From Bacteroidota bacterium (GTDB lineage Bacteria; Bacteroidota; Bacteroidia; Chitinophagales; Chitinophagaceae): DNA of 20,545 bases. Where the stretch lies: contig JAGWPI010000276.1 in NCBI GenBank assembly GCA_028877005.1, positions 1 through 20,545 of the forward strand. Direction: 5' to 3'. Both the position numbers and the translations under genes were made by a program. Position 1 is the stretch's first letter; every line of letters starts with the position of its first letter. The notes under the pieces were generated by a model that saw nothing but the letters and a program-made list of their open reading frames with translations, made no database searches and was not told the origin of the DNA. Below, in pieces: positions 9,452-12,043 of the stretch.

Positions 9452-11023
9452 TTATATTTCGTTTTCCCCATATCTTCTTTTTTTACTAGCCTTATATTTA
9501 TCATAAATAATTTCACTCATAGTTTTGTGGTATACTTTGGATTCAACCCAAGAAATAATATCCAAATAAGCAAAAGCACGAGTTTCAAATCTGTTTTTCT
9601 CTAAATGTTTTATTTTAGAAAGTAATAACTGTAATGCATCATCTAGTTTTTCTTCTCCAACAAAAAATGATCTTCTTAAAAAAGCAAAAATTTCTTCTTC
9701 TACAATAGTTAAATTTTGCATCCGAGCCATGTACCGATAAACTGATTTAATGAGTGATTCCAATATGTCAAAATTTCCCATTTCATAATGCGCTAATAAA
9801 TGCATTAAGCGAGCATAGCATTGCAAGTCGTTTCTTAAAGAAAAATTATCATTGATTATTTTTTGCAAGTAATCAATACACTTGGCAAATTGTCTGCTGC
9901 CAAAGTAAAGAGAAGCAATTTTATAGTTAAATACCAAAATACGGTGTGCATCAATAAACCTTTCAAGTTTTTGCATTTCTGCCTCCATGGCGGGGATGAT
10001 AGTTAATCCTTCCTCAAATGTGCCAGTCATTAAGTACCAGTTAATTTTTGCACTATGAATGTAAATAAAGGTTTGAATTCTGAAATTATCATGCTGATTA
10101 GCCAGATCGGTGATTGAAAACGCCTCAAAGCGTTGAAGTATAATTTGAAACTTATCAAAATTTCTTAAATCAAAGTGCGCATTTAGTAAGTTGTGTAGTC
10201 CTTTAATGTAATGTCCTGTTTCAACAGCAATCATATTGGGTTGTTCATCAAACAATCCTAGCCACTTTTCACTATAACGATAATACATTAAAAAGTCCTG
10301 TCGAATAAATGCATACCATGTATAGCTTTGGTATAAATATAAGCGTTCATAAAACCCAGTAAGCATATAAGCATTCTCCGGCAGGTTTTCTTTAAAAAAC
10401 AATTTTACATCTGTTTCATCTTGTACATTTCTTGCATGACCGTTTTTAATATACCATGTATATAAGTGTAATGCTAGGTTTGATAAGGCAGATACCTGTG
10501 TTACATGTTCACTTACTTTTATAGATTCCGCGGTTATTTGCATGGTTTTTCCCGGCATACTTCGGGTAATATGTAAGGTTTCAATTTTTTTTTCTAAAGA
10601 AAGCACCTGTGTCATAAAATTAAATTTATTGGCAGTTTTAGCCATTTCTTTAGCACGCTCTAAAATTTTTAGACTTTGCAGAAATAGACCTTTATTATAC
10701 AATATTCTGGCGTAGTCTAATTGTTCGTTTAGTTGTAAGTCAATACTATCGGTGCTTTTTAATAACCTTAAACTAGCTAATACTTGTTTATATAAATGTG
10801 TTTTTAAATTAGCTAACTGAGGTTTATTAATATTACTTAAACGTTTTAATAAATTTTTTTCATCATAATCAGGCATTTTTTCTAATGCATCAAATAATTG
10901 CACAATTTTTAGATCTTCTTTATTGGAACTCCGTTTTATGTATAGCTTAAAATGCCTTTTTTCTGACTTTTGCAGTGATTGAATGAGTAGAAATAATGGG
11001 TCTGAATTTCTGTTGGGCATCAT
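9452..11023 (-). CDS. Hypothetical helical protein, Bacteroidota type
   Basis: 523 residues from the first ATG (11023); the frame extends to a GTG at 11044, but MMPNRNSDPLFLLIQSLQKS looks like a natural start. I do not recognise a named family. The protein is soluble (no signal peptide or membrane segment) and almost entirely alpha-helical. It opens with a conserved-looking basic segment (SEKRHFKLYIKRSSN, about residues 20-35). Long helical-hairpin stretches resembling divergent TPR repeats follow, for example GLFLQSLKILERAKEMAKTA, SRQFAKCIDYLQKIIND and YARLMHLLAHYEMGNFDILE. TPR-like folds usually mediate protein contacts; any specific role is unknown. The C-terminus is basic (YKASKKRRYGENEI). 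The gene lies downstream of a candidate small RNA gene on the opposite strand, and no clear own promoter was found. Confidence 0.8.
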   Translation of the reverse strand: MMPNRNSDPLFLLIQSLQKSEKRHFKLYIKRSSNKEDLKIVQLFDALEKMPDYDEKNLLKRLSNINKPQLANLKTHLYKQVLASLRLLKSTDSIDLQLNEQLDYARILYNKGLFLQSLKILERAKEMAKTANKFNFMTQVLSLEKKIETLHITRSMPGKTMQITAESIKVSEHVTQVSALSNLALHLYTWYIKNGHARNVQDETDVKLFFKENLPENAYMLTGFYERLYLYQSYTWYAFIRQDFLMYYRYSEKWLGLFDEQPNMIAVETGHYIKGLHNLLNAHFDLRNFDKFQIILQRFEAFSITDLANQHDNFRIQTFIYIHSAKINWYLMTGTFEEGLTIIPAMEAEMQKLERFIDAHRILVFNYKIASLYFGSRQFAKCIDYLQKIINDNFSLRNDLQCYARLMHLLAHYEMGNFDILESLIKSVYRYMARMQNLTIVEEEIFAFLRRSFFVGEEKLDDALQLLLSKIKHLEKNRFETRAFAYLDIISWVESKVYHKTMSEIIYDKYKASKKRRYGENEI

Positions 11024-11112
11024 GTAAATTTTTTGATGAAACACAATGTAGATGCAGCTTTTACATCATTTAAAATTGGTTTAAGGTAATAAAATCATGC
11101 CTAAATTGATTT

Positions 11113-11141
11113 CTGTCAATAAAAAACCCACCTTACTTTTG
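11113..11141 (+). promoter_or_regulatory. Promoter-like element of candidate small RNA
   Basis: TACTTTTG at 11134-11141 matches the -7 consensus TAnnTTTG exactly. CTG at 11113-11115 lies 18 nt upstream, a layout close to that of the rpsA promoter in this window (CTG, 19 nt, TACCTTTG). Inferred transcript start about 11146-11148. Confidence 0.55.
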
Positions 11142-11169
11142 TATAAGAAAGATGAGTTAAAGGTATTAA

Positions 11170-11282
11170 AGCAATCGTTAGAGAGACAAAAATCGTTAGA
11201 GGCAAAATTTTAAGGCAGTTATTTAAACTACCTTTCAATAATAAAGTTCAAGAATTTTCATATGGCAAGCAATCGTTAGAGG
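11170..11282 (+). repeat. Three direct copies of AATCGTTAGAG(G)
   Basis: Copies at 11173-11183, 11191-11202 and 11271-11282. The first and third share 14 identical bases (AGCAATCGTTAGAG, starting at 11170 and 11268). The second and third share 12 (AATCGTTAGAGG). Spacing is irregular (18 bp, then 80 bp), so this is not a CRISPR array. All lie inside the candidate small RNA; the third abuts the terminator stem. They could be repeated binding or base-pairing sites in the RNA, or operator sites in DNA. Confidence 0.8.
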
Positions 11283-11314
11283 TCGTTCTGTTTCTACGGG
11301 ATGACCCTTTTTTT
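11281..11314 (+). terminator. Rho-independent terminator of candidate small RNA
   Basis: As RNA, GGUCGUUCUG (11281-11290) pairs with CGGGAUGACC (11297-11306) over 10 bp with three G-U pairs and a 6-nt loop, followed after one C by seven Ts (11308-11314). The orientation is plus, opposite to both flanking genes, and no plus-strand protein gene ends here. Confidence 0.75.
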
Positions 11315-11371
11315 ATTCGGCACAGCAAGTTAAAGATTATTTAACACGCACCAAATTTTTTTTCAAATTTC

Positions 11372-12043
11372 TTATAAAAATGATTGATGAAGGACATTGA
11401 GATGCAAAGCCCCAAAATTTTGTAAAGAACTTAATTTTAAATCGGCAGCCCCCCATCTTTGTTCTTTTTGTTGGTGGTACATAGGAATAACTACACATTT
11501 CATTCTGGCAGCTTTTGCAGCAATAAGGCCATTAAAGGAATCCTCAAAACACACGCAATTAATAGGTGGCACTTTTAATTGCATGGCGCAATTAAGGTAT
11601 ACTTCTGGATGAGGTTTACCATAAGGTAAATTTTCGGCAGAAGCAGTTGCCATTATGTAATTTGAAATGTTTAATTGTTTTATAACCTGGTTAATGATGA
11701 ATTGGGGCGAGGACGAGGCAATACCAATATTGAATTGTCTGGATTGAAAAAAATCAAAAATATAATCAACACCCGGCATTGCCTTCCCTTTTGCTGCAAT
11801 TTTTGCTGCAACATTTTCTAAAATTTTTTGTTCCGCAATAATAATTTCTGTTTCCGGAATTTTAAATTTAGAAAACCATGTAGCTACAAATTCATGTGTA
11901 CGTAAACCAGTGGTGGTATGGTATTGCAATTCGCTTAATTGAATTTGGTAATTAATAAAAGTTTCATCAGCTGCTTCTTTCCACAATGGCTCACTATCTA
12001 TCAATAAACCATCCATATCAAATATTACCGTATTAATTGCCAT
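11372..12043 (-). CDS. hxpB: HAD-family sugar/hexitol phosphatase, HxpB (YniC)-like
   Basis: 223 residues, a cytoplasmic HAD subfamily IA phosphatase. Motif I is FDMDGLLIDSEPLW (nucleophile Asp9, acid/base Asp11), motif II the Ser in GIASSS, motif III the Lys in YGKPHPEVY, and motif IV ED in CFEDSFNG. The cap domain lies at about 16-90. GLLIDSEPLW, SAENLPYGKPHPEVYLNCA and GLIAAKAARMKCVV are close to E. coli YniC/HxpB, which hydrolyses sugar and hexitol phosphates such as 2-deoxyglucose 6-phosphate. I therefore favour that branch over phosphoglycolate phosphatase or beta-phosphoglucomutase, though substrate cannot be fixed from sequence. A consensus promoter lies only 8 bp before the ATG, so the mRNA is almost leaderless. 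Confidence 0.85.
   Translation of the reverse strand: MAINTVIFDMDGLLIDSEPLWKEAADETFINYQIQLSELQYHTTTGLRTHEFVATWFSKFKIPETEIIIAEQKILENVAAKIAAKGKAMPGVDYIFDFFQSRQFNIGIASSSPQFIINQVIKQLNISNYIMATASAENLPYGKPHPEVYLNCAMQLKVPPINCVCFEDSFNGLIAAKAARMKCVVIPMYHQQKEQRWGAADLKLSSLQNFGALHLNVLHQSFL

Follow-up and report, generated by a model that had tools for sequence, protein, structure and literature searches.

The plus-strand stretch at 11148–11313 of the window (the whole 20,545-nt piece of Chitinophagaceae DNA analyzed here) is probably the gene for a trans-acting sRNA of a multicopy family of sibling sRNAs with FopS-like anatomy, in which an unpaired segment would be both the docking and the pairing site; judging from the sequence, we give this reading a probability of about 0.65. 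Comparison of genomes at the sequence level shows a noncoding RNA with a promoter box, two or three GCAAUCGUUAGAGG-type motif copies, and a terminator under selection. The RNA family is spread through Chitinophagaceae, is also present in some viral genomes, and is apparently undescribed.

The element occupies the gap between a TPR gene (9452–11023) and a HAD hydrolase gene (11372–12043), both of which are on the minus strand, as a first-pass annotation of this DNA had stated when it proposed an unannotated sRNA gene on the plus strand. The −7 promoter box TACTTTTG at 11134–11141 (plus strand) fits TAnnTTTG, given as the Bacteroidota sigma-A −7 consensus in PMC9723704, and a TTG at 11107–11109, 24 nt from the box and replaced by TTA in H. 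sandarakina, could by its letters be a −33 element. With the 5′ end placed from the box and the 3′ end from the terminator, the predicted sRNA is ~166 nt long (11148–11313, plus strand). Three motif copies of the AAGCAATCGTTAGAG type were located on that strand, at 11169, 11187 (80% identity) and 11267: M1, AAGCAATCGTTAGAG itself (11169–11183), is supported by the repeat search and by the same-genus and TPR-context alignments; M2, AATCGTTAGAGG (11191–11202), has its repeat match starting at 11187; and M3, TTTTCATATGGCAAGCAATCGTTAGAGG (11255–11282), contains the match at 11267 and is the RNA-family core. Between M2 and M3 the centroid fold places a small plus-strand hairpin, AAGG...CCTT (11212–11234), in a poorly conserved stretch, and hairpins of other sequence seem to occupy this position in many relatives. 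The intrinsic terminator (11281–11314, plus strand), recognized by folding and covariation, has an 11-pair stem with 5 G-C pairs and a 4-nt TTCT loop at 11281–11306, one pair more than the 10 bp previously given, followed by T7 at 11308–11314. The RNA as a whole folds no better than its shuffles (z 0.09), the 3′ module folds better than its shuffles (z −3.1), and the motif copies lie outside stable hairpins in the centroid fold.

Shuffling the scanned region yields 0.9 ± 0.8 terminator-like sites by chance, and since neither box nor terminator is significant alone, the case for a gene comes from conservation. The gap aligns with that of three other same-genus genomes (Hydrotalea flava, H. sandarakina and a Bacteroidetes bin), and this comparison, which the first-pass annotation had itself suggested, bears out its sRNA gene: box, repeats and terminator are all kept in the syntenic gap of the four genomes. 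The box is invariant, as are 61 of the 63 columns of M3 plus terminator and 54 of the 69 columns of the M1/M2 stretch, compared with 12/34 for the internal hairpin and linker and 28/53 for the flank beside the TPR gene. Directly after the terminator, 27 of 28 columns (11319–11346) are also invariant in these genomes, and this stretch holds a dyad, GTTAAAGATTATTTAAC, at 11329–11345 that occurs once in the window's genome. The earlier description of about 165 nt of ORF-free sequence with a repeated motif holds for the length and for the motif, now counted at three copies; it fails for the reading frames, since a 38-codon ORF at 11097–11213 overlaps the box and repeats. We rejected this ORF as a gene because its frame is lost in the relatives (27 and 23 residues, and in one case 63 with no stop codon reached within the piece read).

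The box is also found beyond the genus. It aligns in 44 of 47 TPR-context sequences family-wide, 41 of these 44 having TAnnTTYR and 20 the strict TAnnTTTG. Counted over 82 rows, to which some loci contribute two, the strict form is present in 42, against 10.9 ± 3.3 (maximum 19) in Markov controls, and it is commonest 100–150 nt before the core (32 rows).

The 3′ module consists of UUUUCAUAUGGCAAGCAAUCGUUAGAGG and a UUCY-looped terminator hairpin that covaries, the hairpin being preceded by the near-invariant unpaired segment CAUAUGGCAAGCAAUCGUUAR. Our covariance model (R1) and its alignment (A1) took in 42 of 45 selected sites, leaving out L161, L163 and the decayed L005:1883 copy; R1 was built from exact-core copies, so it favours such copies, and it includes four pairs within the invariant core that have no covariation support. 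In the covariance alignment five stem pairs show changes on both sides. Among 148 unique hairpins, the paired fractions counted from the loop were 1.0, 1.0, 1.0, 1.0, 0.90, 0.68, 0.66, 0.93 and 0.91, compared with 0.72, 0.63, 0.70, 0.71, 0.58, 0.45, 0.49, 0.72 and 0.44 at the same nine positions when the arms were shuffled; the register was chosen for good pairing, at least four pairs were required and 19 sites were skipped, with the first four positions paired by selection and the others carrying some bias. The loop is TTCT or TTCC in 117 of the 148. Judged from these alignments, the terminator hairpin is kept by compensatory changes. Since copies found by exact match are invariant by construction, we inspected 36 divergent copies found by the model: CAAGCAAUCG is kept in 33 and GCAAGCAAUCG in 31 while the flanks have changed, and likewise CAAGCAATCG is present in 33 and GCAAGCAATCG in 31. 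The three without (L231, L232 and L242) may, from their letters, be false matches. On the 3′ side of the core the divergent copies vary, with CGTTGAGG, CGTAAAGG, CGAAGACGG or CGCCGG.

The covariance model found the module in 167 of 244 Chitinophagaceae genomes at 1–11 copies each, including three copies in the window's own, incomplete genome; the gene proposed for this locus is one member of a multicopy family that also reaches viral contigs. When the gap was the query of a BLAST-type search, its 3′ part turned up in 25 of 59 genomes, none from outside this taxonomic family, and wider samples gave the same picture, with matches in 48/248 genomes of the order and 5/247 of the phylum, every one in Chitinophagaceae. 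The exact core 20-mer is present in at least 119 genome-contig stretches; among the 80 matches listed, titles are mostly Chitinophagaceae, genera of that family, or plain Bacteroidetes/Bacteroidota, and a handful of bins bear the names Flavobacterium, Pedobacter or Sphingobacteriales. Tandem runs of modules at ~380–530 bp spacing were seen at L021 (G016:C41) and on G010:C18, G025:C1 and G013:C1, reaching at most six copies per contig, five within ~1.7 kb and one beyond the TPR gene, with one of them decayed. The first-pass annotation had allowed for a known Rfam class, including 6S RNA, and the covariance-model search of Rfam does not support this: nothing in the whole window reached a family's gathering score, the gap gave only hits that fell far short of it (E 1.3–3), and the 6S model was not matched.

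Copies of the module recur in a small number of genomic contexts, which we counted for 117 sites at exact-match host loci after de-duplicating sites by flanking sequence. At 40 of these the element stands head-to-head with the TPR gene as in the window, with 171–309 nt (mostly 200–260) from the gene to the matched start; at 34 it follows a divergent ECF sigma gene, precedes pheA, or both; and 43 show neither context, the flank being too short to decide for 26 of these. The recurrent order in the TPR context is box, M1 (GCAAGCAATCGTTAA), M2 (AATCGTTAGAGGCC), often a small hairpin, an A-rich linker, M3 and terminator, as read from an alignment (A4) of 47 of 52 sequences that leaves out L007, L075, L098, L208 and L241. 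An upstream GCAATCGTTA copy with at most one mismatch was found at 43/78 TPR-context sites (controls 0–2), 0/56 sigma/pheA sites, 8/86 other sites and 1/16 viral sites. The next downstream gene in the TPR context is on the same strand in 28 cases and on the opposite strand in 31 (67 sites).

At the inspected sigma/pheA loci a small lipoprotein-type ORF precedes the element. In 29 of 57 copies at this locus GCTTGC occurs 31–42 nt before the core (within a hairpin loop in 26), compared with 0/78 TPR-context and 3/89 other copies; six control hexamers gave 0–1 of 57 at the sigma/pheA locus, and a seventh, which overlaps the motif, gave 5. It is possible that the GCUUGC loop pairs with GCAAGC of the core (e.g., L058, L036, L182), which would form a loop–core pseudoknot or an on/off switch; of two RNAs folded, the minimum-energy structure contains this pairing in L058 and not in L036. 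A third recurring locus has divergent copies 183–252 nt behind a same-strand ORF (L209, L228, L230, L238, L239), presumably an aminotransferase gene.

The neighbour conserved beside stand-alone copies is the divergent TPR gene (9452–11023, minus strand). By its sequence its product is a relative of the BT_2802 family and, under the curated cut-off, not a member, matching NF058569 distantly over its full length at 143.6 bits (cut-off 550, E 9.9e-42). The fold is Rap/NprR-like, and domain and profile searches identified no RNA-binding domain. We aligned the query with 33 of the 120 homologues listed (A5). Most carriers have a second TPR paralogue, and some families elsewhere in the order are rich in copies (G043 has 16 matches). 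A close homologue is found in 40 of 42 module-positive genomes of the family and in 1 of 18 module-negative ones, these being raw counts uncorrected for phylogeny and based on a 530-bit threshold set after seeing the data, with G029 assumed to fall below it.

Outside host genomes, the exact core 20-mer is on eleven IMG/VR contigs (L162 and L165 being the same stretch), and a looser 18-mer is on 17, of which L247 looks like chance; no copy was found in INPHARED or PLSDB. Of 12 contigs examined, seven have PHROGs matches, with functions including integrase, SbcC-like nuclease subunit, RecT-like annealing protein, exonuclease, tail lysozyme, replication initiation, neck protein and unknown. ARAGORN called a tRNA on 6 of 11 viral loci, and in L161, L163 and L170 the hairpin runs into the tRNA without a T-tract. 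In L160, L162, L165, L166, L168, L169 and L245 the element begins 9–26 nt after the end of a mechanically called ORF.

We infer action in trans because the copies are dispersed, the downstream gene has no preferred orientation, and viral contigs carry the module. In the trans-acting sibling sRNA that we favour, the RNA would be transcribed from a promoter of its own or, at other loci, derived from the 3′ ends of mRNAs, and its function would reside in the unpaired segment, which would both dock on an RNA-binding protein and provide the seed for pairing. By analogy, it would control mRNAs much as FopS does with RbpB in Bacteroides, and phages that carry copies of the 3′ module would exploit that partner or titrate it. 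PMC11697453 describes the FopS RNAs as paralogues that combine a conserved unpaired segment with a terminator, associate with RbpB, repress mRNA by pairing near its start (susC-type targets), and have been deposited in Rfam. FopS/GibS of Bacteroides thetaiotaomicron and the family found here are, on that description, both multicopy paralogous sRNAs of a Bacteroidota in which a conserved unpaired segment is followed by an intrinsic terminator, with intergenic and 3′-UTR members and sigma-A type promoters. Our family has the unpaired segment, the terminator and several paralogues per genome; it differs from FopS as there described in that the conserved segment adjoins the 3′ terminator and can be repeated within one RNA, and in its other bacterial family, its viral-contig copies, and a partner and targets that are predicted only. 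The comparison is with the description in PMC11697453, the window giving no Rfam match at gathering score and the gap only the far weaker ones noted above. The csRNAs, Qrr and OmrA/B sibling sRNAs (PMC4211561) likewise have several related genes per genome, partly in tandem; they belong to unrelated hosts, number 2–6 members in the sets given there, and are likened by description. The family described here has related, separately encoded predicted sRNA genes in one genome, three in the window's and 1–11 among carriers. Phage-encoded sRNAs are similar in being RNA elements on phage genomes, but here the phage copy carries the core of a multicopy host RNA family.

Searches for targets gave no conserved perfect site. 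Within its own genome, the 18-mer antisense with up to three mismatches found only the elements and one 3-mismatch site; exact 10-mer core antisense gave no conserved site in the four same-genus genomes; and the start-region complement GCCATATGAAA with up to one mismatch gave nothing conserved at a start codon in them, with a minority of the one-mismatch places inspected. Pattern counts of GCCATATGAAA against the reversed control were in clear excess only in G002 (124/59), and were 78/69, 109/124 and 84/95 in the others. In H. flava (L254, G003:C61:8251–8260), sense CAAGCAATCG lies just before the start codon of a gene that we take to be dapB-like; an exact copy so placed is absent in the other three same-genus genomes. 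The lack of a conserved perfect target neither excludes seeds of 7–9 nt nor proves a protein partner, and we therefore split the function between a FopS-like mode and a decoy.

In the decoy mode, CsrB-like in logic, the repeated motif would bind a protein and titrate it away, so that less reaches mRNAs; candidate partners are the divergently encoded TPR protein and RRM proteins, and phage copies would be sponges. The two to three motif copies per stand-alone RNA, the long near-invariant core with no conserved perfect RNA target, and the adjacency and co-occurrence of the TPR gene argue for this. However, away from the TPR context a single motif is the rule, as the upstream-copy counts show, the co-occurrence carries the phylogenetic and post hoc caveats given above, and the TPR protein has no identified RNA-binding domain, so we regard a decoy as unlikely, if worth keeping in mind. 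CsrB and RsmZ have multiple GGA motifs in hairpin loops that bind CsrA. Our RNA resembles them in repeating a short motif, but the motif is in unpaired stretches outside stable hairpins and Rfam gave no Csr family match, so we do not assign it to that group. More speculatively, the module could be a family-wide RNA hub whose GCAAGCAAUCG core is recognized by a dedicated RNA-binding partner, perhaps a RusR-like, Rap-fold TPR protein, with phage copies hijacking or titrating that partner; we consider this doubtful.

The possibility that the module acts in cis, as a conditional terminator or 3′-UTR stabilizer that only ends or protects its own transcript, seems to us poor. The module is a terminator, several viral copies closely follow an ORF end, and at the sigma/pheA locus a small ORF precedes the copy and pheA follows it; but termination has no need of a near-invariant 20-nt unpaired core, stand-alone copies have their own promoter, the downstream gene is unbiased in orientation in the TPR context, and three viral copies enter a tRNA without a T-tract. 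Cis-attenuation is likewise unsupported. Since many copies are mRNA 3′ ends, part of the RNA family may be simply terminators.

A mobile or selfish repeat of REP type, which might be considered given the multiple copies, the tandem runs near 390 bp spacing and the viral contigs, is very improbable, as copies occupy the same loci across genera and compensated changes fall in the stem, the unpaired part staying constant, the reverse of the pattern in REPs. We give hardly any credence to a translated mini-ORF, ATG GCA AGC AAT CGT TAG (MASNR), acting for example as a signal peptide for the Rap-like TPR protein. All 172 sites matched by a pattern ending in GTTA continue into a stop codon, TAG where the next base is G (154) and TAA where it is A (18), and the TPR protein resembles peptide sensors in fold; but a codon-degenerate pattern added no viral contig to the 11 matched exactly, so that no synonymous variants occur there, the window's M1 and M2 have no ATG, and the core persists in divergent copies whose ATG (ATATAGCAAGC, ATAGGGCAAGC, ATATCAAGC) or stop (CGAAGACGG, CGCCGG) is gone. 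We rejected MASNR because of this variation at ATG and stop and the lack of synonymous variants on viral contigs; neither it nor the 38-codon ORF has a frame kept with synonymous variation. The antisense role on read-through transcripts of the HAD gene that the first-pass annotation suggested, for which the gene geometry in this window speaks, is also very improbable, since a HAD homologue adjoins the element at only two of 117 host sites (both Hydrotalea records) and the conserved neighbour is the divergent TPR gene.

Multicopy families of the sibling-sRNA type are already known as a kind; this one is set apart as a variant by the motif repeated in one RNA, the family-wide near-invariant 3′-terminal core, and the viral-contig copies. 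The literature available to us on paralogous sRNA families, Chitinophagaceae or Hydrotalea RNAs and phage sRNAs gave no description of it and no occurrence of the core letters, supplements and most subscription papers being outside that search. About 20 near-invariant unpaired nucleotides in 1–11 copies per carrier and on viral contigs point to a conserved regulatory circuit in Chitinophagaceae, a widespread group with little-studied post-transcriptional control. If the hub reading were true, it would mean a new RNA–protein regulatory system and a new phage route to host regulation. One core sequence, one conserved TPR neighbour, and cultured Hydrotalea and Niabella species offer an experimental handle that bears on how sRNAs work in Bacteroidota and on their possible exploitation by phages.
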